Below, piece by piece: positions 2,883-32,793 of a stretch of DNA of 32,793 bases (position 1 is the first letter of the stretch; each line of letters starts with the position of its first letter). Location: contig JADGKB010000136.1 of assembly GCA_027604185.1 (NCBI GenBank), positions 1 to 32,793 of the forward strand, read 5' to 3'. This DNA comes from Boothiomyces macroporosus. Its lineage: Eukaryota > Chytridiomycota > Chytridiomycetes > Rhizophydiales > Terramycetaceae. The translations under genes and the position numbers were made by a program. Under the pieces are notes generated by a model. That model had not been told where the DNA came from. It saw only the letters and a program-made list of their open reading frames with translations, and did not search any database.

Positions 2883-5488
2883 TTATCTATTTTCAGGTCC
2901 ATTGTAATAGTCATCTTGATGTTCTGGTTTCATATAACTAGGTCGCTGTGCATATACTTGAGAATTTCTTTGATTCGGAGGTTGGGCATATGTGGATCCT
3001 TGATTAGGATACATGGCGGTTGAATCAAAAGTTTGAGAAGTGCGATATTCCAAGTTAGGGTCAAGACTGCGATATGGATTTTGGTCTTGCCATGGCTCCG
3101 AATTGTATGGTTGATTGCTTCCCCTTCGGTAGTCTGATTGTGGATATGAAGAATAACTCGGCTCTTGGGCAGTCAAATTTTCGCCTGGGCCAGGATATTC
3201 ATTTGCACGAGATTTCTTGTGCTTTCTTGCACGACGTTCAGGTTCAGGGAAATGCTGTCCAGGGTATTGTTCAGGTGTATTTTCAGCAATTGTAACTTGA
3301 GAGGGTAATGCTGCCCTCGGTGGTTTTGGTAATCGTGGTTGACTAGCAGGGTTCTTTCTCCCTACACTTTTATAGTAACAACATTTTATGCAAGACCATA
3401 AGATTGAGAGCACTACGAGTGCAGTCAACGCGAGGAGCGGATAAAAATATTGAGGATATGCATTGATCCAAACAGACGCCATTCCAAAGATGGATGCACC
3501 AGTACAGCTTCCATTCGAACAGTGTCCATCACCACCACAAGGTGTTCCATCTAATTTAATGCAAAAGTTACCTACAAAGTTTCCGTTTAGGATATAGCAA
3601 TTTCCGTTGCTGTCTTGACATTTTAATCCGCAGTCGTTCCCAAACCCATTACATGCTGAAGTAGTAATGATACCGACAGTACCACCTGTACCAGCTGAAC
3701 CCAAATTTGAAGCCTTGCATTGCAAATCTCTACTTGTACATATTCCTGATGCACATTGTGCAGTTACATTGCCAGAAACTTTGCAACTGGTACCATCTGG
3801 CAAGAATGTATTAGTTGGACATGTGGCATTCGAACCAGTACAGACAGCATCTGTATCACAAACCCCTTGTGATTTGTGGCAACTCGTTCCTTGTGGTTGC
3901 AGCTGGCAAGTGCTTGCATTACAACAGTTATCAGCAGCGCTGCACACTGCCCCGCTGGCAAAAGTACAGGTAGAAGCGCTGCAACACTTGTCCTTGCATT
4001 GATCTGGTGTCCCACAGTCACACTGTTCATTCCCTTCACGAACTCCATTTCCACAAATACCTTGCTGAATCAATTTTGACACTTGAGAAGGGTCTTGTTA
4101 AAAACCATTTACCTTTCAAACACTTTCCTCCCATTTGTCCGATGCCTGAGCAAATTAAAGAGGTGGATCCTGATGAAAAGTTGTTGGTAGTCGCCGTGTC
4201 CAATGGGTTCATTACTATGATTAAATTTTTAATTACAAAATTGACTGTTGCAATCACAAGGCGAGCACGGAGAGCACACATTCGATGCACCACTAGCACT
4301 ACATGTCGAGCTAGTACAATCGTGTATTGCCCCAAAGTTATGCCCAATTTCATGGGCAACTACTTTCCACTCTGTAGGTACAATAGATGAGACACCTACA
4401 CCAGAAACATACACTGTCCCCCCACTACCTGATGGATCTGATTGCGCAACTGCGTTTTGCTGACATAGAGTGCTGAGCCATGCAATACCAACAGCTGGTT
4501 GAGTACTGCATTGGGTCATTAAATGCCATAAGCCCATTCCGTCATCGCCAAGGGTTCCTCTCCACTGTGCAAACGCTGATAATCTATTGCTGATGGTAAA
4601 CTGAGGATTCGAGCAGTCTACATTCCAAGTCAAAGAATTGTCAGCGCTACAGCTCTGTTGTATCATAACTTTTCCAACACCTAATTGAACATTGAATGTA
4701 GATTCATAGGTCTGTGTAGCAGAATTCCAATTCGAAAGAATGGATTGTAGCGCTTGGCTGACACCGCCTTTTGCTTGAACGTATGAACAATCTGCAGCCA
4801 CTCCCATTAACAATACTTTTTTGTTTGGTAATGGACAACTGGTGCTGTCTTTGACGGCTCCAAATTTAGAAGACTTGCCAGTATATGAAGAAGTATCAGT
4901 GCCGCAAGTGGAGAAAGAATTTCGTTTGATCAAATGTGAAATGTGATCGTGTTTTTCAATTACTCCATAGTCTTCCTTAATCAAAATGAAATCCGACAGA
5001 TAATCTTCAGGGTCTCTAGAATACGGCGAAGCGACTTCGACGTCCGCCTTTATCAATAATCAATTACCCTCCTTTGTGCTCTTTTGTACTGATTAATCTG
5101 TTTAATATGATAATTGGTATCCATAATAATCGATCCTTCCATAGTTAAAGGATTCTGACTTGTAATTACTATTTGCGCAGATGAACCTTTCACGATTTGA
5201 TTATCTTCTTTCATTACTCCGTTGTATACGGTATGGTATGGGAGTGGTAAAAACTGAACACCATCATCACCATGAATCTCTGCATACCCGTTCAAATTCA
5301 GACTTGAAGATTCCAATTCCGCATGAAATGTAGAGTTGAAGCTCTTGAATTTCAAATGCAACTTTCCATTTGTTTTGTATATTGTTGGCTTAGTAACAAA
5401 ATCGTAGGTTCTAATTGGGGGATTCACTATATTAGTATCGGATACTGCTTGCGAAAACATCTAGCGCCAGTAATAAGGCGCTCAACAT
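2883..5488 (-). CDS. ADAM-family membrane metalloprotease (prodomain, reprolysin, disintegrin, Cys-rich, TM, tail)
   Basis: Five exons: 5488-5446, 5426-5068, 5047-4237, 4214-4113 and 4093-2883, separated by introns of 19, 20, 22 and 19 nt; the spliced product is 841 residues. Exon 1 supplies the signal peptide (MLSALLLALDVFAS). The ATG at 5460 would leave the protein without one. The zinc site HEIGHNFGAIHD is at about H366, E367, H370 and H376. Removing the 22-nt intron creates LMNP, the Met-turn that defines metzincins. A Cys-rich disintegrin-like module (from GICGNG, about 452-545) and further Cys-rich sequence follow, then a transmembrane helix (about 655-675) and a 166-residue Pro/Tyr/Gln-rich cytoplasmic tail. 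Expected role is surface proteolysis or ectodomain shedding. The catalytic residues are intact. Confidence 0.92.
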
Positions 5489-5716
5489 AATTGGGAAACT
5501 TTGCTGTGTTTGAAATGGGGTGGCTTTTGGGTCAGCCCAAAGTTTGAAGCAAAGGGCAACAAGCCGTGAAAGGGTGATTAAGAAATAAATTTAACGGCGT
5601 AACATCTGCTTGCTCTCTGGAAGGAAATACGACAATGGGAAAAGAAGCGTCACGATTGGATATCTAAATTCAATATCGCAACACTATAAATAGCCAGAGA
5701 GGTAAAAGTAGCTATA

Positions 5717-8336
5717 TTATCCTGATTCATCAACTATTGGAAGCAAGCATTTCAAAGCCTCGTCCAACGGAATATGATCAGTTAACCATTTACGAGGTTG
5801 AACAGAAAGTGCATGACTAGAGTCCAATTGCAATTCGATTAAATTTGGATCATGAGCACCTGGGCTTAAGCCAATGCGAACTGAAAATTCTGGTTCATTT
5901 CTGTCATCGTCAATGCCTCCTGTTCTTTCGTATAACTCAAACGTAATTTGAGTGAGATCTAAATTAACGAATATTTACAGTCCAATTCCGCAATATCCGT
6001 TGGGATTACTTTGGTTTTTAAGCCATTTAGCAATACCACATTAAGCAAGCAGTACACTTTAGATTCTTTGGTAAAATATAGTCTTGTCAATGCATTTGGG
6101 GATATTGATGCAGTAACCAACTCTGAGTGTATCGAATTTAGCAAGAACCGCGTGTTTGTCTTTCCAATCTCCAACTTTTCCTTGTTTTCGATTCCAAATT
6201 CATGAGGACCGATAATGTCAAACAAAGCTTTCGATTGCACACACAAGCTTTGGACCAAATTTTCATCGTCGTGTTTAAAAGTATAGTACAGGAATTCCCT
6301 GTTGTGTAACAAGTCAAACTTTAAGGCATCGTAAAGTTCGCTAATTTTAGAGGGTTCAAATTTGTTGTGCTCGACATCGCAGAATTCCTTAAAGAGCTTG
6401 TCTACATTAACGCAAGTTACCCCATCTTTCCAAAAACAATTGTTCATTTTCAAAACAGCAGAATTCCACCTTTGCACGCGGCACTTTGAGGTTTTCTACC
6501 ATAATTATTCGCATCCTTTTCATCAATTTAATCATTGTTCGCACCGGCTCGGCGAAATCTGTCCATCCTTCTGGCATTACGAAAACTGAAGGGGGTATGG
6601 CATGATAGTCTGGGTTCAGGATATGCTGCAATTTGGATTTTACATAGTCTGTTTGTTCCTTTGCTGCATTACTATCATCAAGCATTTCTTTGTTTATCAC
6701 AATTAAACCAGACGGGATATCCTTATCCAATAACGCCTTGCAAAAAGTCTCTGCGGTATCAATCACTCGCTTTTCAGAGCTGCTTAGTACTTTCAAGTCT
6801 TGAATCAAATCTTTGTTGATGATATTCAAGTCTGTACGAAGATTCTCTCCTAAATCTTTTGATTGAAGATAGCCAGCGTGTGTAAAAAGCCCTCCCCATT
6901 TTATAATCAATTGCATTTTCTTTAGGTTTTTAGTTCCCTTTTCAAATATTGATCGAAGCTGTATTTTGGTCCCACTTAATTTTCCTTTATGTTCCAAAAT
7001 ATTGTCAATTTGCTTCAGCGCATCCACATCACCGATAGAGTTATCAATGCAATACTTTACAGTGTCCATCACAATTTTAAACTTGTCCATAGTCTTGTAC
7101 ACGAGCTCGTCTTCGCATCCTTTGACCAAGTCCAAGAACGGCTGGGTTTCAAAAAAGAATTTCACTTTTTGTTTTGGGGTTCTATCTGCATGTCGCATGA
7201 CTGAAAGAAAAGCTTTCATGTTCCACTGACCTTTTGAACTGAAAGTTTGTTGTCTAACAAGCTTGTTTCCTCTTCTAGACACTTCATTAAGAAAAATCTT
7301 TCTGATTCGTGATGCAGATTCATCATAGTAATCTTGATTCCCTTTGACAAATGACCAGCCATTGACATCAATCACGTACGACTTTCCATTTGCACGCAAT
7401 AAATCAAACCCACAAACTGTCTGACCAAATGTCACACACACCTTTCTAGCTATATCCACTTCCTCTGGTGATAACTCTGTCACATAGCGAATTTCTTTTC
7501 CTTCCGCGTTTCTTCGCACTACACCATCGACAACGGGTGATTTTCTTGTTTCTGCATGCGAATAATGCTGCCCAATTGTATACACTTTGACATCCTCTGC
7601 GTTATCCACTTGCATAAACTCTTCGTAAATGTAGGAATTAACACCGTCACATCGTATATCCGATTCTTCTTTGAAATATTCGCTGGATTTATTGCCCTTC
7701 TTCCTGAAAAGCTTCCTAATACCACCGCCTTCTTCTTTTGAATAGTAAATGTAAATATTATGGTCCTCGCCCGACACAGGCTTTTCCACGAATGGTTTCT
7801 TTAACGAATCGTTCTCCACCTGAATTTCTTCTGAACTAACCATCTTTGCAGTGATAGTAGCGTTAATATATCTGTCAACATCAAATCCTATCCTCCTTGC
7901 TTTCATTTTTACTTCTTTAGTGAGTGTTGGAGCATCCTTGTGCCAAGTAACCAAACGCTTTGGAGTCGGCACACCAACCGCATCCAACATAGTCAAAACT
8001 AGATCAACAATAATTACCTAGTCTTCTGTCCAGCAGCAGTTGCTGCATTGGCAAATCATTCAAACAAACTGGCTTTCTCAACTTTACATAGTCAATTGCC
8101 TTTTCCAAGGGAAACCCAGTGGAAAAGAAGGAAATCAAGAAATCGCACAAAGGCCAATGGTCAACTGGCTCATCAAGAATAACCTTATCTCCAAAAATGA
8201 TCAAACTGAAATCACCACTAGCGAGCAGCCTATCCAGAATATTGCGCATTGGCTTTGAGCGGGATTTAGTGTCCATTGCGCATATTCCAATTGTCCCTGA
8301 ATTTAATAAGAGGCTACACTTCTTTTCATCGTCCAT
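5717..8336 (-). CDS. VIP1: VIP1/PPIP5K inositol pyrophosphate kinase with histidine-phosphatase-like domain
   Basis: Four exons, 8336-8018, 7998-6421, 6401-5979 and 5958-5717, with introns of 19, 19 and 20 nt; 853 residues. The start is the ATG at 8336 (MDDEKK), followed by the family signature [15 protein letters not shown]. The N-terminal ATP-grasp kinase half ([45 protein letters not shown]) makes 1-position pyrophosphates on InsP6/5-InsP7. The C-terminal half begins with [13 protein letters not shown] and ends with [14 protein letters not shown] and [14 protein letters not shown]. All segments match the family in order only after splicing. The usual ESH of the phosphatase domain is ESK here ([11 protein letters not shown]), which may weaken phosphatase activity. 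Cytosolic. In fungi it controls phosphate sensing and polarised growth. Confidence 0.95.
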
Positions 8337-8649
8337 TTTTTGTAAAAAAACAAAAACAATAAACACATGCTAGTGATCTTACATGGAATGCGATGTTGGA
8401 CTATTGCTACACGTCCAATGTGGTCGGCTTTGCGGAATATTCTGGGTCTTCTTGGCTGTCTGTGCATCGGAAACCAACATTGGTAATTTCGAATATCCTA
8501 AAGGTGTTGAAACAGCCGCGGTTAGAGATTTTGTTTGAACTGAAGGGTTTCACCTCCAACTAAATTTCCTTTGCTCCAGGTTTCATCTGCGGAATGATGG
8601 CGGAATTTTCTTTTCTGTGCCCTCTGCAGTTTAAAAACAGCACTTGACC
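8337..8649. promoter_or_regulatory. Divergent promoter region between VIP1 and the MORN/hydrolase gene
   Basis: A 313-bp gap between two genes transcribed away from each other, so it must contain both promoters. I see no open frame of note, no repeat, and no motif I would name with confidence. Confidence 0.5.
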
Positions 8650-10657
8650 ATGTCGGGTTTAGAAAACACAGTCATAATCACAATGGCGAGGACAAATAAC
8701 ATGGGAGTAACAATGAGGCATATGTTCAAAAGGGAACTGAGAAGAGTGTCGAATGGACATTATAAAAAATCTGCACAGGAAGAACTTTGGTAATTCGTGC
8801 TAAATACAGGACGTTCTTTCTTGTACTTACATTCGCGGCTTTAATCGGTTTTGCATTTTGGGGCTCAAATTCAGTATCATATTATATTGCGAATTGGACC
8901 AGCTTCGGATTGCTGACATTTTCATTCCCAGTGATTATTTATGTCATTTTAAAGGTAAATATTGCTAATTCAAGCTGTCTCTGCTCATGCGATGGTTTGT
9001 ATATTGGATTATTGTTGCGACGGGGATTCTGTTGTTTGTCGATAATGATCATAGAGTAGAGTGGTCAAAATGGATGTTTGTCGGATTCATTTGTGTGGAA
9101 GCGATTACAATTTTTGTCTATATCTACATTAGAAGCGTTTATCCAAAGCTTGTTTTGATATTGTCACAGAGATACCATAACTTCTGGGATATCCAACCAC
9201 ACATCAAGCAAGATCAATATACCAGGAGAGCACTGTTTGTATGGGGTAAGAGATACAAGTTTTCCTATACTGGTTCAATAAATGAACAGAATTTACCCCA
9301 TGGATACGGAAAATGGACTAGCGAATGGAGATTGGGCGAGTCTCTCTCGGGTTACTGGGAAAATGGAATCCCGATTGGACCTTTTGATTCCAGAGAATAC
9401 AGAACCGGCTATGCATTCTCAAACGTGCGTATTGGATTTGCGACTTCTTGTGCTGGACCATTTACTGTTACATCTTTCAAAAGAGCCCCGGAGTTACTCT
9501 TCGGTGTTGGCTGCGTAGAATGCTCGGTATCTGGAAGATTTTTCTCTGATTTACCTAAGGCCAGAGTTATATTAGATCCATTCAAGGATAGGAATTATGA
9601 TGTTGACACAGTAGTCAGGCAAATTATTCACCCTGACGACTTTCCAGAGTCAAAAACTGCTTCTGCAAAGCGCAATACTCTGATAATTGATAATACTGAC
9701 CAAGGGCTGTACTTGCGCGGATATGTCCCTGAAAATGACGCAGCATATGAAAAGGTAGTTATTGAAAGGACAGAAAATGAAGATTTTGATTACAGTTGGC
9801 AAATTAAGGGCTGGAAACTATCCCCTAAACCAAAAGAAGCGATTGTTTTCGTGCCTGGATTCAACTGCTCAATGGAAGCTGCTTTCCGGTTATTTGGCCA
9901 AATGATTACTTTGGGAACAATCCCGAGCTACTTGAAACCTTTTGTTTTTGGTTGGCCAGGCGGTAATTTAATCGGGGTTAGAAAAGCTGTTCGAGTTGCG
10001 CAATCCCAGCAAGTTACAGACGACTTTATTAAATTTATTCAAGAGCTTACACGGGCAGGGTTTACCAAATTTCACTTGATTTGCCATTCGATGGGCGCAA
10101 GGGTGGTCAATGCCGCCTGTAAAGATTTCCACAGGGTGTTTCGACTTATTCCAAGAAACAGACGTTCATCATCCACCCTCAGCCAAGTACATCACCTCCC
10201 AGTGCTGTCTTCTATAACATATATCAATCCAGAAGCACTATTAAATCCCTTTTGTGAAGAGTACGTTGATATCATTAGAAATCACACAAGCTTAATTACA
10301 ATCTATGGAAATAACAGAGATATCGCTCTAAAGACTGCCGAAGCACTGGAAGGCTTTAATCCAATATTGGGCTGTAATGTGAATGGGATTCGATCTGCTT
10401 TTGGAGGTGGAGATATTGAAAACTACTCTGAAACGATAAGATACTTGATGGAAGTCGATGTGATAGATACCACTGAGCTTGATATGAACATTCACCTGGC
10501 ACGACATAGCTATTTCAATTTAAACAAGTTCATTGTAGATGATGTTTTTGATCTCATTATCACACGCAACAGAGCTAAAGACAGAGAACATAGACTACTC
10601 AACATTCGAGGAAATGTTTATGGTTTCTTGTCCGCCCCATCTTATGTAGTCACTTAA
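8650..10657 (+). CDS. Multi-pass membrane protein with MORN-like motifs and DUF900-type alpha/beta hydrolase domain
   Basis: Three exons, 8650-8789, 8810-8954 and 8975-10657, with two 20-nt introns; 655 residues. The ATG at 8650 is the first in frame after a stop. The N-terminal region holds about four hydrophobic helices (FFLVLTFAALIGFAFWG, LLTFSFPVIIYVIL, WIIVATGILLFV, FVGFICVEAITIFVYIYI). Next come MORN-like stretches (YTGSINEQNLPHGYGKW, GYWENGIPIGPF). The C-terminal half is an alpha/beta hydrolase: VFVPGFNCSMEAA strand/oxyanion region and nucleophile elbow CHSMG with Ser at about 467, as in DUF900 proteins of unknown substrate. Its stop is 34 bp from the convergent kinase stop. Esterase/lipase-like activity at an internal membrane is inferred; the substrate is unknown. 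Confidence 0.88.
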
Positions 10658-10670
10658 TATATTTAAATTG

Positions 10671-10676
10671 TTTATT
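10671..10676 (-). terminator. AATAAA poly(A) signal for the CK1-like kinase
   Basis: A minus-strand AATAAA sits 15 nt past the kinase stop, inside the 34-bp gap to the convergent hydrolase gene. Any normal 3' UTR on either gene would overlap the other. Confidence 0.4.
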
Positions 10677-10691
10677 ACGGGTATTATTGCG

Positions 10692-12066
10692 TTACCCTTT
10701 CACAAAGAATTGATCACCAACAAAGGTTACAGATGAGGATCCTACACGAGTGCTACTCTCCATTTCGCACCAGTCAAATACCTTATCAAAAGTGTGTCCG
10801 GAAAAGTGTAGTATGTCCAAGAACTGTTGGTAAAGTGCATCATATTCGATCACAGTGAAGGGTCGGGCTCGGTCCCTAGTTACAAACAAGTAACTAGCAA
10901 GGGGTTGTATTAGTGGTTCGTATTCAGTCCCAATTAAGCTAGCACAAAAATGATTAATCATATTATCATTTTTTGCCAGTGCGATATCCTTGTGGGTTCT
11001 TAAACCTCCCCAAGGCAATCCTTTCTTCCCACCCACTATTAAATACATCAATACGTAGCCTATTGATTCGTAATCATCCTGTATAGAAGGATCTAGAGTT
11101 AATTAAAGCTTACAAGTCGCGCCAACAGTTTGCAATTCACAAGCCATAAACAGGGGAGTTCCAGTTTGTCCAGGTAACTTTACCAATGGAGAAGTCGAGT
11201 ACCCGAAATCAATCAAGTAGAGATCCTTCCCGTTAGCACTTGTGCAAATATTTGATGGCTTGATATCCACATGTGCTTGGTTGGTTTTCTGATTAAAGTC
11301 TCTAACTAAAGACATCTACGTTAACTGGTGATTACCAAGTTGAGGGCAATCATGCATATGGTTTTTAGGCTGAATCTAAATCCACATTGCTCGAATCTTG
11401 AGGCCAGTGTGTCAGACAAGTATTCCATAATTAAAGTCTTTCGCTTTCTGCACGCAAGAATAAGTTTAGGGGTATAACCTGGATTAATTGCGGGGTTACC
11501 TCTTCCTAGAGAGTGAGTATTTAACATTTTCATTGTATTTAATTCCGAGAGAAATTGTTTGCGATCCTTGATAACCTTGACAGCAACCAATTCTGACGTT
11601 TGCGCGTGGAGCTCCCGTCCCAAGAACACTTCCCCACACCCTCCTTTCCCTAGCAACTTTATCAATTCCCACTCCCTTTTTCCGTTGTCAGAAACAATCT
11701 ACACGTAAGAAATTATTTTACTCTTGGCAAAATTTGGACAGGTGGACGTGGAAGGTCATTGGTTTTCCTCTTCAGTGGGATAATTGGTCTTTCCAGTGGA
11801 CTAGAGTAAAAATAAGGTGATTTGGGTGTGATTGGAGAGACTGGGCGGGCATCGAAAGGACTCTCATAATCGAAATCCTGACGTATGGTGTCATCTTCCA
11901 GACGCAATCGCTTTTCAGTAGGAGATGGATATGCAACTTGCAACGGTCTTTTGGTGCGGTTGTAACAATCCTGACAGCAAGATTCCGTATGGTGTTTAAC
12001 TGGTATTTGTATTTGCGGAGGATCGATGAGGTCTGGAATGGTGATTGCGTGGATAGGTTTGGTCAT
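10692..12066 (-). CDS. CK1/TTBK/VRK-like protein kinase
   Basis: Four exons, 12066-11722, 11698-11336, 11315-11114 and 11092-10692, with introns of 23, 20 and 21 nt; 436 residues. The first 115 residues are Pro-rich and basic (for example TEKRLRLED) and likely disordered. The kinase fold follows: Gly loop GKGGCGEVFLG (about 132-142), Lys in LVAVKVIK (K156), catalytic loop HVDIKPSNI (about 251-259), LIDFGYST (D272), and after the third intron DDYESIGYVLMYLIVGG.LPW, a casein-kinase-1-group signature. The HRD Arg is Val, so this is a non-RD kinase. All essential catalytic residues are present. Substrates unknown. CK1-group membership is secure; the subfamily is not. Confidence 0.9.
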
Positions 12067-12434: not shown

Positions 12435-15219
12435 TTATCCTACTAGCTTTTTTCGTTGTTTTTCTTTAAGTGCCTCTACAACATGCATCATCTTGTGTTC
12501 GTCTGTCAATGGGACGTTTTTACACTTTGCACACATTATCACTCTTCCATTACTATCATATTTCTTTTCATCTGGCGCTCTTGGCTTCATTGGCACGGGC
12601 ACATTTTGTACAGCTTCTTTAGAGACTTTTATAGGTGGATTTACTGAGTTTGGGTGTACATTAGCTGGAATAGGTTCACAGTTGGTGGTGCTGGATCCAA
12701 TTGGGTTCAGGAACTCTTCAACTTCTGAAGAGCTCCGAACCTGTGGAATTACATAATCAGATGTTTGTGAAACAGGATCGATGTTTGGAATTGATTCAAA
12801 CTCTTTTTCAAGCTTGGGACTAGACACAATTGGTACAGAGTCTCCAAATCCTGCAACAGGTGAAAAATCCAAAACTTCTGGTTCTTCCTGTTCTCGGGAC
12901 TTTTTTTTCGACATGTTGCTCATATAGCTAGAAAAGCTTAGACGCTTCAGCTCCTTCTTTTCTGGGACTATATCTGTTGGAGATGTACCGAATTCTTGTT
13001 CGAAATTCCTTATAGATTCCAGTGGATTGTAGCCTGTCTTTTTCAGATTGGATTTAACAGGCACCTTAGAACTATCTGGATGCTTGAGATTGGGCGAAAG
13101 GTCAGGCAACAACCCAAAATCTTCAAAATCTGAATAATTGACATAGTGTCTTGTATCTTGACCAAATTTGATTTTCCTGGTATCAACTGGAAATGAATTT
13201 TGTCGCTGGACACCTTGGGGTTTTCGATATGACTTGGAGTACACTTCAGGAATATCTATTGAGGTAAATATTTTTAGTGGCTCCGCTCTAGTGTTCAAGG
13301 GTTTTTCAATGTGAATAGATTTTCTATCATTTGTGTCAGATTGGTTGGGTTTAGAGTCTTTTGCAGCTTTTTTGACATTTTCAGACACATAGTCTTTTCT
13401 TGCACCGGGTAAATTGCTTTGGATTGGTGAATTGAACTGGTTGATATTCCCTAATGGGTCAGCCTTTTCGGTATTTTTGATTCCCTGATCTCTAATTTCA
13501 CTTGAAGGCGTGCTGAAGCTTTGATTAACCTTACTGTATTTCTCGTTGTAGATATTTGTTCCTTTACTGCTATTTGAAAGTGATCCAGACACAGACTTTT
13601 CACCTACACTGATTGCTTTTGAAGGTAATCCTTGCTTTTTGATATTTGGAGACTGTACACTTCCAGTTGAATCCAGGGTCATTTTGTGCTTATCTTTTGA
13701 GAATGCGGGTAGCGGTGCTTCTTTCTTTCCAAAGTTTATCTGATGCCTGTCAGTACTTGATGAGTATTTTGTTTTTGGGGAATTGGTTGGAGATTTAGAT
13801 TTCTGCAAGTTAACCACTGGAAGATCATCTTCAGAGCTTTCAGATATAATAAGGTGTCGTTTTTTAGATGAAATGGGAACCTCCTCTTCATTTTTTCTCT
13901 TTGTCTCAACAGAACCGGCATCTACCACTTCTTCTTCCTCTTCATAGTCAGAATCAAGACTAACAGTCCCAATAGATTCATCATCTGGACTATTATCCAC
14001 CGCAGGGATGATTTCATCGACAGCTTCTGTTGGGATATAAACTTTGCCAGATCTGGTTTTTCGTATTCCGAGATAATCTGTTTGATGAATAAGATCAAAA
14101 TTAAACTCTGAATTGTGGATAATTTCAAAATCCTTTTCCGTTTTACCAGATGACTTTTTCCTTTTAGAATCGTCATTCGTTGCTTTTTTAGGCTGGATTT
14201 CTGTTTTTTGATCGGACGAAGAACTGCTTAGGGTTTCAGCAGGAGATGTAGTATCTGGAATATACGAAGCCAGCTTTGACGTAAAGGTATTTGGAGGATC
14301 GGTTGCCGGAGACTTTTCTTTTGAATTAGTATCCAGATAGGCTTTGATTCCACTTGCTTGGCTTGTTTCCGTTGTATTTTTTCGTTCTTGAATTTGTCGC
14401 ACAGGTATACTTTTTCTATCAGAATCTCCTTTTATATTCTTCCACTCTTCCATATTCCCACTGTTTGGTCGAATATTTTTGTTGGGACATACTTTGTTAT
14501 GATTGGCGAAGCTACTTGTCAACTTTACTCCACAATACCTACATGTTACCAAACCACCTGGATTTGGGCTATTGTTTTCTGGAAATTTCAAGAATTCCTT
14601 GGAGAGTACTATTTTAATATTACCATTGCCGTCTTCTCCCAGCAAATCTATGATTGACAACTTGGCTGCCCCATTAATGTAGTCACGCAATTTCCAGTTT
14701 GCAGGTGCATCCTTTTTGACTGTCTTATAAATCTAAACGTTAAAAGTAGTTTACCGATCCAACTTTCGAACTTTGCGACGGTAATGGGAATATTGGTTTC
14801 AGGTATTCTATTAATGGGCCGTATAATCGCTCTTGCTCTTTCGTAAGATTTCTTTCCATCTTTTTTGTTGGAGATTGATTTGGTGCCTTGGGTGTTGGAT
14901 CACTGGTTGGATAAGGCGGGTATGCTTGTGGTCTAGGGTAATGGTCAACTGGCACCTGGTACCTACCATAATGATGCTGAGAAACTGGATAAGGCGGATA
15001 ATCATTTGGATAATTATTTGGATAGTCATTTGGATGCGGTTGATAATCACTTGGATGTGGCCATTCACCTGGTCTTTGATAATATTCTGGATAGGGATAG
15101 TATGCTCTCCCAGGAGATGGAGGGTAATCACCTCGATCCGCATACTTCCATTCATCTGATCTGTAACTTGGAATCCTTTCCCCGCACGGTCTACTGTGTT
15201 CATATCTGTTGTAATCCAT
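12435..15219 (-). CDS. Large disordered protein with OST-HTH/LOTUS-like winged helix and two small zinc-finger motifs
   Basis: Two exons, 15219-14755 and 14732-12435, with a 22-nt intron; 920 residues. The start is ATG 15219 (MDYNRYEHSR). The first 115 residues are Tyr/Pro/His/Asp-rich. Across the intron, LYGPLIEYLKPIFP through KLRDYINGAAKLSIIDLLGEDG (about 133-205) follows the OST-HTH/LOTUS pattern seen in RNA-binding and ribonuclease-associated proteins. This assignment is by eye. CRYCGVKLTSSFANHNKVC is a plausible C2HC finger, and MCAKCKNVPLTDEHKMMH near the C-terminus has CxxC plus H..H. The roughly 600 residues between are Ser/Lys/Asp-rich with basic clusters that could serve nuclear import. 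No NYN nuclease domain is visible. An RNA-related nuclear or granule role is inference. Confidence 0.75.
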
Positions 15220-15483
15220 AAGAGAAATGAAAAAGTTTTTCAATTTTGCTGGCTGAAATCCACTCTTTTAAATCTCTGCAAAATTTAAATCAGCTTAAAA
15301 GTATTAGGAAACGTGTGAATTTATTAGTCAAGCGAAATCGGTTCAAACTCATCGCCGATGATGAGAATTTCCTTTGTGTTTTTATGCTGCAACTCACTTC
15401 CTTCCCGCTTTCCGTTGTCATTGATCACCGGTTCGACAATCGGCCTTGGCTTCAGCTCACCATACTCGACGCTTGGTTCTCCC

Positions 15484-20704: not shown

Positions 20705-20732
20705 TCACAGTATATTTAAGAACCCTCTGCGT

Positions 20733-22745: not shown

Positions 22746-23983
22746 TTAAGAGTTTCTTGAAAAATTAAGCAGTAGATTGACGTCTTCGTCATGGTTTAGC
22801 AAGTATTCAATTTTGATTCTCTTGAACTGCTTTTCATTTCTAGTTTGGACACTAACATCTTGTGCTTGTGAATGATGTTGAAAGAAGGATTCATTAGCTC
22901 GGCTTGGGGAAGGCAGTTCATGTTCTTGCTCACTAGTAGGAGTAAGCGGACTTCCAACGGCTGATTCCCCGGTTTCCAACACTCCATCAACAAACACACC
23001 AATACAATTGCCTACCTTATTCTTCATATCATACAGCTTTAGGTCTGGTTTAACCATTAACTTTGGCTTTTCAAACAGCCAGCTTTTGTTTCTAATGCCA
23101 AACTTAAAGTCCAGTCCACTACCTGGTTCAAACAAGACACAAAGCTCATTCTTTGACGGGTCAAACGTGGTTTCTTTGACGATCAGTTCGTTCAGCACAT
23201 TAGTAGCCTTGTTAGTAAATAATTACCAGTCCCACGTCCATCATTGGATACCGTTTCTTGTAATCACCAGTAATTTCAAAGTACTTTTCACCTTGATAAA
23301 CTGTAAATGAAGTTGGAGTAGACCTGAAATCGCTCCAAACTAGTTCAGATAGCAGCCTTATTGGGGCATACAACTTGCAGCTTTGTTTATGTTTTGGTTT
23401 CTGGTATCCCCGTTCAGTTTCTCCACAGTACTGGCAATAGTAACAAAACGGAGGGCATTTCCGTAAGAATTGCTTTTGGATATTGCCCAACTTGACTTGG
23501 TTCTTGTTTGTCTTTGAGTACTCATGATACTTTAGTTCAATCAGCTTGAACATTTGATCGTAAAAGTACTTGCTTTGTCCATAGTATTGATTCTTGACTG
23601 GCTTTTGAATTGCATGACTGTTTACTGTTTTCGGGTTGATGATTGACAGGATGTGAGTGTATCTATGAGAGCATTCCGCAAGAGCTAAAAAGCACTTTTT
23701 GCACTTTAGACTTGTTTTCAAGAATGGTTTATCTGGAATGTGCTGTATCACTTCGCCAATGGTATCCAGTATGTATTGCAGGTATGGGTCGATGAGAGTC
23801 ATTAGCAGCCCAGTCATTTCCCGCTGTGTCTCTATCATTAGGATAACTTTTTGTGTTCCAAAATGCTTTTCATTCAAATTCAGTACAACGTTTTGTGCGA
23901 CCCAAACATTTTCTTGTGTAACGTTAATGATCACATACTATGCGATTGCACATGAATGACACCTTGGGATAAATTTTAAACAT
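22746..23983 (-). CDS. Cys/His-cluster protein of unknown function (possibly MYND-like)
   Basis: The main exons are 23937-23227 and 23207-22746, joined by a clear 19-nt intron (GTAATTATTTACTAACAAG, 23208-23226). The frame has no ATG at its 5' end. A proposed first exon 23983-23963 (MFKIYPK) and 25-nt intron starting GTG would give 397 residues; this exon is uncertain. Visible features are an early CKKC, then CPPFCYYCQYC...HKQSC (about 165-192), reminiscent of the C-terminal half of a MYND finger, followed by a beta-rich region and an acidic Ser/Pro linker (about 320-355). It converges on the SH3-PX-PB1 gene with 18 bp between stops. Family not recognised; zinc binding is inference. Confidence 0.65.
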
Positions 23984-24943: not shown

Positions 24944-25312
24944 ATGAGTGATTCAATTGAAAACTTGCTTTCCATTGGCAGTTGGGATCAACAAAGGCCA
25001 AGCGATCTTGACTTTTGGCTGGCAACCGAATTCTCCTCATCAAAACCTGAAGAGCCAATTGTAGCTCAAAAGCCAGAAAAGAAACGTAAAACAATTTCGG
25101 AAGCAGACGACGAAGACGATAAACGCAGGAGGAACACAGAAGCATCTGCCAGATTCCGAGCAAAGAAAAAAGCCAGAGAGCAAGCAATTCAAAAGGAAGC
25201 TAAAGAGCTACAGGAAAAAGTAGTCAGGCTGGAAGAGAAGATTAAAGAACAAGAAATGGAGATTAAATGGCTGAGACAGCTTGTAAATGAAAAGCAGCAA
25301 CAAGTAAATTAA
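24944..25312 (+). CDS. Small bZIP transcription factor of the CYS3/MetR/Met4 type
   Basis: Intronless, 122 residues from ATG 24944; the frame continues 6 nt upstream only to a TTG. The N-terminal 45 residues are acidic/aromatic (SDLDFWLATEF), suitable as an activation segment. The basic region RRRNTEASARFRAKKKAREQ (about 66-85) carries the N-x-x-(A)-A-x-x-(S/F)-R bZIP DNA-contact pattern, and is followed by a leucine zipper with Lys/Glu-rich heptads ending IKWLRQLVNEK. The NTxASARFRxKKK signature and WL in the zipper match fungal sulphur-assimilation regulators (CYS-3, MetR, S. pombe Zip1). The sulphur role is inferred. It is unusually short for that family, which often exceeds 200 residues. 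Confidence 0.9.
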   Translation: MSDSIENLLSIGSWDQQRPSDLDFWLATEFSSSKPEEPIVAQKPEKKRKTISEADDEDDKRRRNTEASARFRAKKKAREQAIQKEAKELQEKVVRLEEKIKEQEMEIKWLRQLVNEKQQQVN

Positions 25313-25482
25313 ACGTTAATTCTAGGCTCAAAATGCCTCTGGCAATATATCACAGCAGCAGATACAAGAACAAATCAATGCCGCAGTTACGTTCGCGCTT
25401 CAAAATCAATTCTTGTCCAAATAATATATTTTTTAATCATTGATCTTATTTGCTATGCGCGAGTTGATGTAGGTCGACTATG

Positions 25483-27125
25483 TCAGTTTGCTTTACCTTT
25501 AATGATTAGGTTGTTTACCGACTCGTTTGACTTGACTCTGGAGTGCTCTTTTGTAATGTTTGATTTTGTAATTGTCTTTGGTGAGCTTAGAGCGCCATTT
25601 GATTTGCTTGTATTCAGCGCATTTACGCTCTTACTATTTGGGTCAAGATTAGTACTGCTTGACCTTTCAGATGTAAACGTATATAAATTACCGTTTGATT
25701 TCTCTAGACTAGAGGCACTGGATTTGCTTGCACTTTGCCTTCTGCTTGAACTTGTAGGATCCAGACCAGATGAAACAGAGGAAAAGCTCTTTAACTCGCT
25801 TCCACCCAAATTATAATTGGGTTGATTTTCTTTGAGTGATTTTGAACTTTTTTCTATAGTGGATTTAGTGAATGACGGCTGTCGTTTCTTTTCTACCATG
25901 CAGTCCGCGAAATACTTTAATCCTTGACAATTAAAAACCATTTGTTCAATATTTACTGAGTGGTCTTTAACAGCATTTTCCAAGAATAATGCATCACTAC
26001 TATCTGCTGTAACTGAAATTTCTATAGGAATGTCAGCAAGAGGTAGGGGCGCGCTGCTTTCAGTGAATGGCAACGCAGAGTGTGCACTTGAAGAGAGTGG
26101 GGCACTGTTTTCGGTAAACAGTGTTTGTTCAGCAACCGAAATTAAAGTCTTTTGTAAACGGGGACTCTTTTCACTATTATTAGCACTTGAGTTTTTCAGT
26201 TTTTCAACTCTACTTTCTGATCGTTCAAGAACATTTCGAACATAAATATTTACATCTTCAGGCTGTGATTCTTCAAGAGGGTTTTGCTGTTTTGGTAAAG
26301 AAGTGCTTCTTTTTCTAGTTTTTACTGGATCACTATTAGGTTTCAACCATTGTATTTCTACATTTATGTCTGGCTTTGATTCAAGAGTCTGTTCAGTTAT
26401 CGAATTTTCTTTGGAAATTCTAGATTTAGAAGCCACGCGTTCTTTCTTTGGATGTTGAAACAATCCAACAATATCGTGCTTTTCATATACATCTAATTTC
26501 TCTAGTAATTGTTCAAATGTTACTATTTCTATATCTAGTTTCTTTGCGTGCTGGAATAACATGTAACACGGGCATGATGGTATTGGGTACATGTCTAATA
26601 ATTCCTAAATCAAGTCAATTATACGTCCATTCCATTCATATTCAAATCTACACCTATAAGCTTTACTTTTGAGTGTGTAGATGATATACTGATGGTTTCA
26701 TTTACTAGTTCATTGTTTCGAAAAAACAGACAGACGACCAATCCAGTATATCTAAGCAAAATAATGAAATTGACTATACTAGAAGCTACCCTAAATTGAT
26801 TATTCAGGGCTAGCGCTTGCTTGTAAACATCCCACAGCTTCTCTGTTTCTTTTACCAATTCACCAACAGGATGGGAATCAAAAAAGAACTGAAATGATGG
26901 GAAATCTTTGATGTTGTATTTGCTCGCAATTTCTGGTATATTTACTGTATCCACTCTGATGCACTTTACTCCATCTTGCTGTAACTTTGGAGGTATAATT
27001 CTAACATCTGAGCTACTATTAAATACATCTTACTGGTATTGAAAGTAAGTAAATAAGCACAGCACGAGTCCTGTTGATATACTTGCTTTGAATTCTTCTA
27101 TCGAATCCTGTTCCTTCCAATCCAT
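25483..27125 (-). CDS. Double thioredoxin-fold protein without redox cysteines, long Ser-rich tail
   Basis: Three exons, 27125-27034, 27012-26625 and 26604-25483, with introns of 21 and 20 nt; 533 residues. The first Trx fold (about 5-88) has LVLCLFTYFQ where the WCxxC motif should be, then VKCIRVDTVNIPEIASKYN, then the cis-Pro loop IKDFPSFQFF. A second, more divergent fold (about 105-210) repeats the order: VVCLFFRNNEL, VKLIGVDLNMN, PIPSCPCYMLF. Neither has CxxC at the active-site position, so redox chemistry is unlikely; CPC lies at the cis-Pro position. The C-terminal 300 residues are Ser/Lys/Asn-rich and probably disordered. The neighbouring gene (27175-28432) is a one-domain paralogue. 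Function unknown. Confidence 0.82.
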
Positions 27126-27173
27126 CAAAAGTCAAACAATAGGAACAATAAAATGTAAACTATTTAGAATGTC

Positions 27174-27179
27174 TTTATT
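27174..27179 (-). terminator. AATAAA overlapping the stop codon of the single-Trx paralogue
   Basis: The TAA stop (27175-27177, minus strand) lies inside the hexamer. It supports the gene model ending here and not 43 nt further on. Confidence 0.5.
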
Positions 27180-28432
27180 GGTGTAAAAAATCAGCTTTAC
27201 TAGATTTTTTTTGGACCAGTACTGTGTTAATCTGTGATTACCTTCTTTTCGTAACGGCGTACTGACAAACTGATCTGCCTTTTCAGAGTATGAGTCCGTC
27301 TTGCTTTTTCTTGTATGTAATGTAGTCTCAAGTGTATCGTTTCCAAATACTTCAGTTTCCCTAATAGTTTCAAAAGGTTCGATTGGGCTTTTGGATCGAG
27401 AATTAGACCTGCTGCGAGATTTCCTTACATCTATTCTGAGTTCTACCGCAGGACTTTCTCTTTCCGTGGCATCAATATTCTTTAAAGCTTGAGTAAAAGG
27501 ATCAGAGTTTTCTATTGCGTTCGTACTTTGAGGTAAGTGGGTTAGTTCCAAAATGAATGACGGAGCTGAGAGTGTTGCAGGAACTACGGGTTTGATAATA
27601 TCATCTTCTTTCGAAACAGTAGGTTCAATCAATGTAACTCCATCTTTATCTAGTTTAAGGCATTCAGATTGGCGTATAATGTTTTCCACTAGAAAATCTA
27701 ATTCTTGCATATTCTGCATACTCGTTGGGGTATTTATAAACACTGAGCTCTTGTCGTTGTTGTCTAAAACTTGGATTGTATTAACAGGTAGTTTGCGAGA
27801 TAAAGAATTTGCTCTAGATTTCCTAATTTTGCTATCTGAAGTGCAGGAATTGGTAGATGCTACCATACTTTTTCGTCTATCTTGATTTTCCCCAAGACTA
27901 TTCTCTTTGAAATGGCCAATACTCGGTGTGTCACTGTTCTTTTCAGAAAAATTGCTCGCAGATTTACTCGTTTCTGTATTACTCGATTCAGTGGGATTTG
28001 GTTTGTCAACACTTTTATTTGACCTCGTTGACGAAACACTGTTTTTTCTAACTCGGCTGGTTAACACATCTGGAATTTGATTTAGAGGAGCATTTAAATG
28101 TCCGGCGAAATCTCTCGATTCATAATTTTTAAAGATATCCAAGACTTTTTCAAAATCATTAGACATTTCACCATATTTTTTGCCCTCTTTGAAATATTGA
28201 AAGGCAGGATAGTCTTTGATGTTGTACCGCAGTACTACTTCTTGCAAGACATTGGTATCGATCTGTATACATGCGATTCCCTTGGATTCTAGCTTGCTAG
28301 GTAGTGCCTTTATGTCAGAGCTACGATTAGCGCTGTTTACAAGTAAGGAAAACTATAAAAGAGACACAGGGTAAACGGCCCCTTAATATGCTCGTCCAAT
28401 TCTGGGATAGATTTCACGGTTTTCCAAGACAT
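27175..28432 (-). CDS. Single thioredoxin-fold protein without redox cysteines, Ser-rich tail
   Basis: Three exons, 28432-28341, 28320-27242 and 27221-27175, with two 20-nt introns; 405 residues. The Trx fold (about 5-88) reads TLCLFYSFPYF, IACIQIDTNVLQEVVLRYN, IKDYPAFQYFKEGKKYGEM. The WCxxC site is absent. Intron 1 sits at the same place and phase (after two bases of the residue 31 codon) as in the neighbouring paralogue, just where the missing active site would be. The remaining 310 residues are Ser/Asn/Lys/Glu-rich with an RSRSNSRSKSP segment. The last exon is preferred because it removes a 20-nt intron (GTAATCACAGATTAACACAG) and ends in a stop within AATAAA. Without it the frame would run to 27132, 6 nt from the next start. 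Function unknown. Confidence 0.8.
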
Positions 28433-28861: not shown

Positions 28862-31293
28862 ATGAATCTGATTACTTTCTTGCTCTCGCCATTCACCCTT
28901 GGTGCATCATCCAAAGTAGATTGTGGTTATAGTGGGATTACTCAATCCCAATGTGTTGCCAAAAGCTGCTGCTGGGTACCTGTTAGTCCAAATCCAAACA
29001 ATGATCCATGGTAAACGGATTTCACAGTAGGTGTTATGTTTGCTCTGCTTCGTCTAGTCTACAAGCTACCACTACTGTTTTGCAATCTTTGCCAGCTACT
29101 CCCACCGCAAAGATCGATTGTGGCTACAATGGCATTACTTCTGCTCAATGCCTAAACAATGGTTGTTGCTGGCAGCCTGTTAGTCCAAACCCAAATAACA
29201 TCCCATGGTTGATCTTGTATTAATTTAGGTGTTACAAGTGCGCAACAAATAGTATTCCTGTAGTCACCAGCACCATAGTGCCAACATCTACTGTTCCGAC
29301 CACTGCTATTCAAGTACCGAGTACTGTAGTTACTTTTACCACAACATCAGCTACTACCATTCCAGCAACGACTGTCAGCTCATCCGTGAATGCTGTTTCA
29401 ACAACCAGCGCGGCCCCAGTCAATACCATTGTTCCTGTTCTCACTGGCTGTAACAACTTTAATGGCCATGATAGCTGTGTTGGTAACAATATAGAAATAG
29501 ATCCTTCTCAAGATATCCGTGCATGGCAAACTCCAAATAGAAACGATTCCAACTACAAACCAACTTATCAAGACTATAGTGTTCTAACAGGCCATGCTCA
29601 CTTGGTTTACAGTTCTGGAATGCAATCGGCTACTGTCACTGTCTTGGCCAATTCTAAAGCTAACCTTCCACTTCAGTATTCATTTGATGGCGGGCAAACT
29701 TTCTCTGCTTCAAATACTCAAACTTTTACCACTGCACAAACTACTGCTGTTAATATTAAAGTGATTGATCCTAACGGTGCCCAGTTGGTTCTTGATCCTG
29801 TTGATTTGGTTTGGACCAATGCTCCAATTCCAAATATTCCGCAATTTAAAAACGGCCAATTTGGAGCGATTGTAGATCTTTTTGGTTGGAAATGGACTGA
29901 AGTTGAAGCTGAATGTCCAATGTTGGCAAAGGCTGGATACATGGGCGTAAAGATCCACCCTCCAAATGAACATGTAACTACTGACAGCTGGCTTCAAGAA
30001 AATAACGTGTTCAATATTTGGTATTTCATCTATCAACCGGTTTCTTATAGACTTCACTCTAGATTTGGAACTAGGGCTGAACTTCGAAAGATGATACAAA
30101 CCTGTAGATCATTGGGTGTAAGGGTGTATGCAGAGTAACATAGCTTCTAACCTTAGTGCTGTAGTAAATCATATGTCTGGTGGGGGGAATGATATCCAAA
30201 ACCATAGAAATCCTGGTGGAGGCAACAGCTGTGCAACTTGGGGTCCTAAATCAGGAACTGATAACAGTCCATTCTTTACCCAATGGGGAACATTCACTGC
30301 AAACAAAAACGGGCAATTTCCAGGTAACGAATTCCCTTCTGTTCCGTACTTCCCTTCGGACTTCCACTGCGAACGTGTGTTGGGATCTTGGACTGATCCT
30401 ATTCAGCTTGATGCTGGGTGGCTAAGCGGATTACTTGATTTGAACACTGGTCATGATCGAGTCCAAGAAAGAATTGCTGACTTGATGACTGATTATATCA
30501 GCATTGGGTTTTCTGGTTTCAGATTTGACGCCGCTAAACAAATACTGCCTGCTTCCATTGCCCAGATTTTGGCCAAAGTAAAAAGAAACCTCGGTGGATC
30601 ACTCCCTCCAGACTTCTTGACTTGGCTGGAAATCATCCTTGGTGGAGAAAAGGATATCCTTGCTTGTGATAGCACCAGTTCAATCAATTTTTACGCTGGA
30701 TTTGACAACTCTTTATCTGCCAATGGATTCACCGCTGATGAAATAAGCAAGATCAAAATTTGGAGTTCAGATTATCCAAAGGAAATGCCAATCTGTGGTT
30801 CTTGGATATTGCCTCCTTCTAGATTTGTCATGTAAGTTTTAATTAACATAGTCAAAATGATGACCACGATCAACAGAACCCTGGCTCTTCAAGTAGAGAT
30901 ATGCAATCATACGGGTCTGTGCTGATCAAAGAAAGAAACCAACAGGTGCATCGCAACTTTGAGCTGTTGCTTTTCAACAGAAGGGATAACGACTGGGCAA
31001 TCAAAGTGGTCTTGTCCTCCTTTTCTTACGGGCCAAACAATGAAAATGGATTCTTGGATGGATTGTCTGACTGCTCTTTGTACAAGGGTAACCAGACTGG
31101 ATGCAAAAGCTGTCCAAATGTTCCTGCTCACGATCCAAATGCTTGTGGCTACAGTGTTTTTGACGGTAATGGCAACTGGGTCCCATTCATGTACTCTAGG
31201 GTTCATAGAGATCGTCAAATCATCAACGCAATGCGTAACTGGGTTGGGCTACCTGCCAGCTCTGACTTGGGTATTCCAGCTTCATGTCCTTAG
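28862..31293 (+). CDS. Secreted GH13 alpha-amylase with two N-terminal trefoil domains
   Basis: Five exons, 28862-29010, 29031-29207, 29229-30134, 30157-30831 and 30852-31293, with introns of 20, 21, 22 and 20 nt; 782 residues. A signal peptide (about 1-16) is followed by trefoil (P-type) domains at about 19-54 and 77-113, each with the C-G-Y...C...CCW.PV...PWCY pattern. A Thr/Val/Ser linker (about 115-178) and a beta-sandwich starch-binding-like region (DIRAW...QYSFDGGQTF, about 190-300) precede the TIM barrel. Catalytic motifs are DAVVNHM (rebuilt across intron 3), GFRFDAAK with nucleophile D535, acid E569 in FLTWLEI, and D642 in NDDHDQQNPG (rebuilt across intron 4). It would hydrolyse alpha-1,4-glucans outside the cell. 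Trefoils may bind glycoproteins or protect from proteases, as in animals. Confidence 0.94.
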
Positions 31294-31300: not shown

Positions 31301-31491
31301 AGATCTGATTGAAGTACGATTTTCATTTTGGTGGGCAGCAATGCAACATTAATTTATTACTTTGCTCTGAGACCATAATTGATTCCCATGATGGATTATT
31401 ACGGTAATCTATGATATGTTACAGTGGATAATTATGGTAGGATGGCGAAATAATTTACACGAGTACGTTATGACATCACTTTGTCTTGGAA

Positions 31492-32793
31492 ATGAATTTG
31501 CTCTATCAGATAGCCCTACTCTTAGGGATTTGTAAATGTCTCACTCCTAATGGAACGATACAAATCAAGGTAGGAATTCTCATGTTCTATCTTGACGGAA
31601 CTAACGATTTAGCTGATGAAATTGAAGGTGTCTTTGTAAGAATCAGCCAGCTCAACCAAAACACTTCGCTAATACACCCAAACGCAACAATTGTACCGAC
31701 TCTGCTAAATAACCATGGAAGCAAGGCGCAGTTGGTTCCTCAGGCACTCGATATGGCTCTTGACGGAGAAATATTTATCTTTGGTTCCGGATACTCGTCA
31801 ATGTCGATTATTAGTTCGTTGATTCTACAAAACTACCAAATTCCAATGTGTTGCGGCTCTTCCACTAATCCGACTCTGGGACAGAAAGCGCTCTACCCAA
31901 ACTTTTTCCGAACCATCCCCAACGATAACGCTGCTACGCTCACGATGGCCCAATACCTTGCTTTCAACGGCTGGCACAAAATCGCCACTATTAATACCGA
32001 CGAAGACTATGGGAATGGAGCCATATCCTCTTTTCTGAATTACGCGTCGCAGTATAACATAACCGTGCTTTCGAGACAGCTAGTGGAAACGAATGTGGAC
32101 GCAAATGCAGCCAATCAAATCGCACAGCAAATTATTTCTGCCGAAGCGAGGATCATTGTGTATTTCGGGTTTGCAGCAGAGTACGAGGTGATCGTCCAGC
32201 AGGCCACGCTGGCTGGCTGCTACGGCGCTGGATACTTTTGGATCGGAACCGACGGGCTGCAGCAAATGGTCCCTACTACTGCCTATGCCGGCACCTCGTA
32301 TCTGTTCCCGCTGGAGCGGGCTGACGGGCCAGTGTCAGACGCCTTTGACGCCTACTGGAAAGCCAACAGACTCGGCGTTGGAAACCCTGGCGCAAACGTG
32401 TCTTCGATCAACAGCAGCGGCCCGTTTGGCTATTTCCACAGCAGCTGCGTCGATCTAGCGCTTTTGGGCTTTGATGCTCTGGTCAAAGCAAACGGAAACA
32501 ATGTCACCAAGCTCGCTAATGGTAAGCCGCTCTAATGCAGGTGAGCTAAACAGCCAGATGCAAGTCCCTCAATCATTTAACTTCCCAAATCACGACACGA
32601 CGACGGGAAGGATATCTCTGGACCAGAACGGCGACAGAAGCGGGGACTACGCGATTATGAATGTTCAGGCAGACGCCAGCCTTGTCCAAGTATCAAAGTG
32701 GTCCAATGGCGCAGAATACCAAATTCAGCCATACTACTATCCAGGAGGAGCCAGTTACAAGCCAGCGGACGCAATCGACCCAACAACTGTAGC
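31492..32793 (+). CDS. Receptor-type periplasmic-binding-fold ectodomain (class C GPCR or ANF-receptor-like), 3' end outside window
   Basis: Exon 1 is 31492-32521 and exon 2 starts at 32541, running off the right edge, with a 19-nt intron (GTAAGCCGCTCTAATGCAG). ATG 31492 gives a signal peptide (MNLLYQIALLLGICKC). The rest follows the type 1 ligand-binding (Venus flytrap) fold: VGILMFYLDG, IIFGSGYSSMS-like region IFIFGSGYSS, PMCCGSSTNPTLG, FFRTIPNDNAAT, WHKIATINTDEDYGNGAISSF, IIVYFGFAAEYEVIV, YFWIGTDGLQQ and, after the intron, GRISLDQNGDRSGDYAIMNVQ. Class C receptors (GABA-B-like) and receptor guanylyl cyclases both use this module; the transmembrane part that would decide is not in the window. 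GC content rises sharply inside the gene from about 31,900. Confidence 0.88.

Follow-up and report, generated by a model that had tools for sequence, protein, structure and literature searches.

Can a fungus carry segments of only about 20 nucleotides (nt) as its ordinary introns, and if so, how could a spliceosome remove them? A contig of Boothiomyces macroporosus, a chytrid of the order Rhizophydiales and family Terramycetaceae, raises this question. The contig (C136; 32,793 nt, analysed whole and called the window hereafter) belongs to an assembly of 15,203,306 bases in 216 contigs, and a preliminary description of it had proposed a genome-wide style of ultra-short introns. Here we argue that major (U2-type) GT-AG introns have probably been shrunk throughout the genome of this species to a near-fixed 19 to 22 nt, a reading to which we give a probability of roughly 0.93. 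That the segments are spliced from RNA in the cell is what the orthologous proteins restored by their removal suggest.

A gene finder trained on the Boothiomyces genome gave 16 gene models for the window, with 33 introns in total, and 31 introns of 19 to 23 nt across 12 genes were accepted (8 of 19 nt, 12 of 20, 6 of 21, 4 of 22, and 1 of 23; Table 1). The short class described before stands, with a count that differs from the earlier one (28 introns in 11 genes, distributed 8, 13, 3, 3, and 1); the four introns quoted then as examples (starting at 16947, 6402, 5427, and 28321) were found at the same positions and are all among the 31. Both rejected joins lay in the model of an S1/P1 nuclease (124-1929, minus strand). 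One, of 23 nt, had no branch motif; the other, of 139 nt, merged two tandem nuclease genes and is thus not a real longer intron. Pfam recognized two stretches in this merged model, in which the second gene is shortened. The earlier statement that recognised families require no longer intron is correct for the window, to the extent that it could be tested. Pfam matches above the curated cut-off named 10 of the 16 models (S1/P1 nuclease, ADAM protease, VIP1, DUF900 hydrolase, protein kinase, UBA2, SH3/PX scaffold, bZIP, trefoil/amylase, and ANF-receptor-like). Of the other six, two had a match below the cut-off and four had none (three full-length models and one of 338 out of 920 residues). Six accepted introns fall in models without a match above the cut-off (5 of the 31 in three full-length models and 1 in the truncated one), and their support comes from coding statistics and the motif.

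The conservation of protein families across the junctions, also claimed before, was borne out in UBA2 and VIP1, and in U2AF65, which is outside the window list. The spliced UBA2 model is identical to the deposited B. macroporosus protein (563 of 563 residues). The deposited protein already reflects all these short splices, so an annotation pipeline had removed the segments, although no paper found comments on it, and keeping any of the five introns leads to a stop within the stretch displayed. Junctions 2 and 4 are gap-free in all 11 other fungal orthologs aligned, and junction 1 in all but that of Terramyces sp. JEL0728, where 10 residues are missing from the deposited protein at this very point. 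Junction 3 is continuous downstream, next to an acidic stretch whose length varies; junction 5 falls within a poorly conserved tail. The residues flanking VIP1 junctions 2, 3, and 4 align in all 12 orthologs, with gaps in three of them a few residues upstream of junction 3 and small gaps or insertions in four upstream of junction 4. The first VIP1 intron is kept in the deposited Boothiomyces sp. JEL0838 protein as 7 additional residues, one of them different from the B. macroporosus reading, and these are absent from the 11 other fungal orthologs. In U2AF65, junctions 2 and 3 are continuous in 12 of 12 proteins, and at junction 4 two are truncated or gapped; the spliced product reached 342.7 bits against TIGR01642 (cut-off 310.3), compared with 230.7 for the best unspliced stretch. 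The deposited JEL0838 model also merges the neighbouring VIP1 and ADAM genes into one protein of 1407 residues, probably a second mistake of annotation, in addition to the one over the short intron.

The introns could instead be longer and conventional, the short joins being artefacts of fitting frames together, and two deposited proteins invite this idea: U2AF65 of B. macroporosus, which lacks 11 residues that a 19-nt join restores at junction 1, and UBA2 of Terramyces sp. JEL0728 with the gap described above. However, the U2AF65 residues are present in 9 of the 12 aligned proteins, all of them fungal, the rest being the deposited protein itself and two animal ones, and the UBA2 residues are present in 10 of 10 other fungi. 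In UBA2, then, the deposited annotation and the short introns agree, but elsewhere they do not, and deposited chytrid gene models err either by retaining a short intron (VIP1) or by a larger deletion (U2AF65, Terramyces UBA2).

Gene finding without knowledge of the class also spoke against longer introns. A Viterbi gene finder was given coding statistics, the ends GT and AG, and a length prior that was flat from 10 to 150 nt, and was applied to 200 kb of contig C1, separate from the window; the branch motif was never supplied. Still, 98 of the 237 introns it chose were of 19 to 22 nt, against 6.7 expected if lengths were flat, which makes conventional introns a very improbable explanation. The excess appeared with GT-AG only among 11 dinucleotide pairs tried; that run gave 101 introns of 19 to 22 nt with GT-AG and 6 to 14 with the other ten. 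TAAY stood just before AG in 69 of 102 blind introns of 18 to 23 nt, in 11 of 45 of 24 to 60 nt, and in 11 of 76 of 61 to 150 nt. A YTRAY-like motif was found in 101 of the 102, compared with 22% of exonic 20-mers on which GT and AG had been imposed. In the window, the blind finder placed 12 of 28 introns at 19 to 22 nt. The 16 remaining joins (14, 23, 25, or 41 to 148 nt) are probably mis-joins; several of them use a splice site of a short model or span a pair of short introns together with the intervening exon. An earlier gene finder, built on a 5th-order model and run under high penalties, had recovered 34 introns, 11 of them at 19 to 22 nt, and was replaced by lower-order models. No peak at greater lengths was seen up to 59 nt in motif counts or up to 150 nt in the blind runs, save small clusters of blind joins on C1 at exactly 68 nt (5 to 6 each) and 74 nt (2 to 5 each), which perhaps reflect a repeat.

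Counts that involve no gene model gave the same size class. On the 200 kb of C1, the motif GT[AG]..YTAAY N1-3 AG occurred 57, 73, 35, and 15 times at 19, 20, 21, and 22 nt, as compared with 20, 13, 26, and 21 times on the reversed sequence and with 6 to 19 times at most other lengths, so that there is an excess at 19 to 21 nt. Over the whole genome, the 19-nt pattern GTA N7 CTAAT NN AG had 1028 matches, against 40 for its reverse; with a gap of 3 to 33 nt, the pattern had 1350 against 508, and 83 of the first 100 matches listed were 19 to 22 nt long. When the motif and the lengths that the blind set had yielded were used to score models (final set; C1 200 kb and window), 284 of the 298 introns called were of 19 to 23 nt (63, 126, 62, 27, and 6 at 19, 20, 21, 22, and 23 nt). 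Extrapolated by arithmetic rather than counted, from 98 (blind) or 253 introns of at most 25 nt (final) per 200 kb, the genome would hold roughly 7,000 to 19,000 such introns.

The anatomy of these introns was examined in the 284 found within a bracket of 18 to 24 nt. In 241 of 284 introns, and in 86 of 102 of the blind set, the putative branch adenosine (that of the best YTRAY) is 13 to 15 nt downstream of the first G and 5 to 6 nt upstream of the last; none has it at 12 nt from the first G in the final set. The donor carries strong information in GTA only, with A at +4 in 59% and G at +5 in 14% (0.04 bits). GTAATT (34) and GTAAAT (21) are the commonest donor hexamers, and GTAAGT occurs in 7. 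The acceptor is mostly YAG. The GC content is 29% in the introns and 40% in coding sequence, and phases 0, 1, and 2 are represented by 118, 93, and 73 introns. The lower edge is sharp in the final set, with 63 introns at 19 nt and none at 18 nt, an edge that the length prior favours, and the blind set has 20 at 19 nt and 2 at 18 nt. An in-frame stop was present in 54 of the 62 introns of 21 nt, against 138 of the 222 of other lengths. We do not claim from this excess a selection by nonsense-mediated decay as in Paramecium, since the gene finder is biased towards stop-containing introns.

Several parts of the splicing machinery were found in the genome. Two diverged U2 genes keep the GUAGUA branch-recognition sequence intact, and both, like the U6 gene, score over the gathering threshold. 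The U1 gene has a canonical 5' end (AUACUUACCUG), although the usual G at +5 is lost from the 5' splice sites of the 284 introns. These canonical small nuclear RNA (snRNA) elements argue for standard splicing chemistry. With no room for a polypyrimidine tract between branch and AG, U2AF65, SF1, or Slu7/Prp18 could have been lost; this was rejected, as all are present, and their own genes have predicted introns of 19 to 24 nt. Nor did we see a compensatory change of U2 to fit the common CTAAT/TTAAT branch, as GUAGUA is kept in both genes and a G-U pair is left. Together with the genome-wide pattern count, the 200-kb sample, the continuity at the junctions, and the species named for the deposited UBA2 protein, the U1, U2, and U6 genes support the proposal of genome-wide ultra-short introns in a fungus.

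A branch motif near the 3' end, and the CTAAC or TTAAC branches of some introns, would also suit removal by the minor (U12-type) spliceosome. The commonest donors (GTAATT and GTAAAT) are unlike a U12 donor such as RTATCCTT, the introns do not have a U12-type donor, and no U12 RNA was matched in the genome at E <= 0.001, in a search without a positive control. We therefore regard this explanation as highly unlikely.

Frame breaks in draft genomes can mimic short introns, and the segments could in principle be assembly or sequencing indels. Such errors would hardly have a common GT..YTRAY..AG at near-fixed spacing or spare the other dinucleotide pairs, which gave no peak, and JEL0838, another isolate, has the 21-nt VIP1 segment translated with one residue different while 11 other fungi lack it; the chance that indels explain the class appears negligible. 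Equally negligible is bypassing in translation or elimination as DNA, for which short-element precedents exist (the yeast mitochondrial byps and the internal eliminated sequences of ciliates), given that GT-AG ends, a near-fixed branch motif, and U1, U2, and U6 genes fit splicing.

Several observations weigh against major-class introns shrunk to a near-fixed size, or narrow the ground on which they stand. The blind set (102 introns) is the only motif-free one of the two, and the final 284 include the 23-nt window intron rejected above. Models were made for the window, 200 kb (the first half of C1) of 15.2 Mb, and a few splicing-factor loci, and detection is biased against 21-nt introns without a stop and against poorly conserved genes. 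At 22 nt, the C1 motif count (15) does not exceed the reversed control (21). For 16 of 281 introns in the final set, and 5 of 101 in the blind one, the best motif is nearer to the first G, at a distance of 7 to 11 nt; these may be wrong choices of motif or real exceptions, in which case a floor of 13 nt would not be absolute. Introns of at least 41 nt make up 12 of the 265 called on C1 and 1 of the 33 in the window, of which the window one was examined, and a small class of longer introns may exist beside the short one. As for the machinery, U1 scored 68.8 bits, just under its gathering score of 69.5, and neither U5 nor RED_N was detected in the genome, in searches without a positive control.

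If the segments are indeed spliced as major-class introns, their size can be accounted for as follows. Each intron consists of three short signals placed end to end, namely a donor reduced to GTA (mostly GTAA), a YTRAY branch motif, and YAG; the adenosine usually follows the first G at 13 to 15 nt, and YAG comes 5 to 6 nt further on. Since the two spacers hardly vary and add up to about the whole length, and since introns below 19 nt show no excess, the size looks set sterically. The limit would be the closest approach possible between U2 on the branch and the RNA at the 5' site, first U1 and then U6. U1 covers about +1 to +6, and the helix of U2 with the branch takes about seven positions around the adenosine. 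With the branch 13 to 15 nt from the 5' site, U1 and U2 would thus nearly abut, and they probably meet at once in intron definition. Recognition by intron definition would make the spacing part of the signal, the likely recognizers being the canonical U1, U2, and U6 RNAs with the retained SF1, U2AF65, Slu7, and Prp18, and a steric floor of about 13 + 5 nt would produce the lower edge seen at 19 nt. The gap in the Terramyces annotation and the segment retained in JEL0838 hint that the genus or the family shares the trait. All this may be joined in a tentative picture, whose chances we put slightly below even: an apparently ordinary spliceosome would handle nearly all introns at their physical minimum (about 13 + 5 nt), spacing would replace most of the donor signal, U1 and U2 would touch in one intron-defined complex, and the trait would belong to the genus at least and perhaps to Terramycetaceae. 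If this is true, a change in a spliceosomal protein fixed in that lineage should be findable.

Other features of the locus and genome can be noted briefly. The trefoil/alpha-amylase gene encodes an alpha-amylase-like product with an N-terminal trefoil (P-type) domain. The genes spanning 25483-28432 are two in tandem, with N termini alike by eye and long low-complexity tails. Three adjoining plus-strand genes (18295-22727) have a PRSIPF-type stretch in common, also by eye: the first has a PB1 match below the cut-off, the second no Pfam match, and the third SH3 and PX above the cut-off; the first two were modelled without introns. The trio resembles fungal Bem1 scaffolds. Elsewhere in the assembly, among the matches listed, the same sequences recur at a constant offset on C2 (near 269-298 and 312-341 kb), C3 (near 197-211 and 219-233 kb), and C20 (near 74 and 119 kb). 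This points to segmental duplication, or to haplotypes that were assembled twice.

Table 1. Ultra-short introns accepted in the window, the genes that carry them, and the U2 snRNA genes of the genome
Feature	Position	Strand	Length (nt)	Sequence or remark	Basis
ADAM-type metalloprotease gene	2883..5488	-		Reprolysin + disintegrin; 5 ultra-short introns	Gene model, Pfam
ADAM intron	5427..5445	-	19	GTATCCGATACTAATATAG	Gene model
ADAM intron	5048..5067	-	20		Gene model
ADAM intron	4215..4236	-	22		Gene model
ADAM intron	4094..4112	-	19		Gene model
ADAM intron	3551..3571	-	21		Gene model
VIP1/PPIP5K inositol pyrophosphate kinase gene	5717..8336	-		4 ultra-short introns	Model, Pfam, ortholog alignment
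VIP1 intron 1	8297..8317	-	21	Multiple of three, no in-frame stop	Ortholog alignment
VIP1 intron 2	7999..8017	-	19		Ortholog alignment
VIP1 intron 3	6402..6420	-	19	GTAACTTGCGTTAATGTAG	Ortholog alignment
VIP1 intron 4	5959..5978	-	20		Ortholog alignment
DUF900 hydrolase gene (8722-10657) intron	8790..8809	+	20		Model, Pfam
DUF900 hydrolase gene intron	8955..8974	+	20		Gene model
Protein kinase gene (10692-12066) intron	11699..11721	-	23		Model, Pfam
Protein kinase gene intron	11479..11499	-	21		Gene model
Protein kinase gene intron	11316..11335	-	20		Gene model
Protein kinase gene intron	11093..11113	-	21		Gene model
Uncharacterised gene (12435-15219) intron	14733..14754	-	22		Gene model
UBA2 (SUMO E1 subunit 2) gene	15324..17112	-		5 ultra-short introns	Model, ortholog alignment
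UBA2 intron 1	16947..16965	-	19	GTAAATATTTCTAATCAAG	Ortholog alignment
UBA2 intron 2	16707..16726	-	20	GTATCTTTTGCTAATATCAG	Ortholog alignment
UBA2 intron 3	16411..16430	-	20	GTATTATAATTCTAATGAAG	Ortholog alignment
UBA2 intron 4	15954..15972	-	19	GTACCAATATTTAATATAG	Ortholog alignment
UBA2 intron 5	15484..15502	-	19	GTATTCCAAGCTAATATAG	Ortholog alignment
SH3/PX scaffold gene (21136-22727) intron	21409..21428	+	20		Model, Pfam
Gene without Pfam match (22746-23838) intron	23208..23226	-	19	GTAATTATTTACTAACAAG	Gene model
bZIP gene (24944-25424) intron	25304..25325	+	22		Model, Pfam
Thioredoxin-like gene (25483-27125) intron	27013..27033	-	21	Pfam match below cut-off	Gene model
Thioredoxin-like gene intron	26605..26624	-	20		Gene model
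Gene adjoining and similar to the thioredoxin-like one (27175-28432) intron	28321..28340	-	20	GTAAACAGCGCTAATCGTAG; no Pfam match	Gene model
Gene 27175-28432 intron	27222..27241	-	20		Gene model
Trefoil/alpha-amylase gene (29008-31293) intron	29208..29228	+	21	Starts GTT	Model, Pfam
Trefoil/alpha-amylase gene intron	30135..30156	+	22		Gene model
Trefoil/alpha-amylase gene intron	30832..30851	+	20		Gene model
U2 snRNA genes	L009 1501-1693, L010 1501-1691			Contigs C80 and C178; GC 44% and 36%	

Among the papers listed from the open-licence literature, none reports ultra-short introns for Boothiomyces or Terramyces or for any other chytrid, and none describes a fungus with such introns as its standard class. 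B. macroporosus would therefore be, as far as that literature was searched, the first fungus in which they are standard. Fungi are a kingdom with well-developed splicing genetics and biochemistry, and this one offers a testable model for the minimum size of intron that splicing can remove, with a geometry from which the lower size limit for a spliceosome can be estimated (about 13 + 5 nt). The preliminary description knew this size range from nucleomorphs and ciliates and from no fungus, which stands for a standard class; it does not for single introns, since the parts of a study of Cryptococcus neoformans drawn on here plot a bin of 20 to 40 nt, beside an average of 56 nt (PMC11913375). For fungal introns more widely, a survey of 644 genomes served as a comparison (PMC8476143). 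From the portions of these two sources used, Boothiomyces shares with other fungi the major spliceosome and the occurrence of introns of 20 to 40 nt, and differs in that the introns of other fungi average more than twice as long. The introns of chlorarachniophyte nucleomorphs, given as 18 to 21 nt in the sections used (PMC10245619, PMC5014332), have almost the same length range, but they belong to the reduced genome of a remnant endosymbiont nucleus, whereas those of Boothiomyces lie in a fungal nuclear genome. Its introns come close to the smallest on record but are not the shortest class known, since heterotrichs and mikrocytids have 15 to 17 nt (PMC10245619, in part). The mikrocytid Mikrocytos mackini, a reduced parasite, is credited in the same part of that source with 224 introns of 16 to 17 nt in 179 genes and 17 to 19 spliceosomal proteins; its introns are likewise very uniform, short, and conserved in sequence, while Boothiomyces has about 250 introns per 200 kb and SF1, U2AF65, Slu7, and Prp18. 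The heterotrich ciliate Stentor coeruleus, according to the portion of its description used here (PMC9505925), has introns of 15 to 16 nt with the branch adenosine at position 10 or 11. It resembles Boothiomyces in its single narrow size class, mostly GU-AG, in the retained branch recognition site of U2 (the ACAGAGA of Stentor U6 is also conserved), and in a tail of 5 nt past the branch adenosine. It differs in that this portion gives no strong branch consensus, whereas the 19- to 22-nt introns of Boothiomyces have a clear YTRAY with the adenosine usually at positions 14 to 16. By the same reasoning from spacing, the Stentor authors looked at Cwc25, Isy1, and Yju2 (PMC9505925, same portion). 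Beyond ciliates, mikrocytids, and nucleomorphs, Boothiomyces thus appears to be a further case of ultra-short standard introns, in a fungus with a 15-Mb genome.

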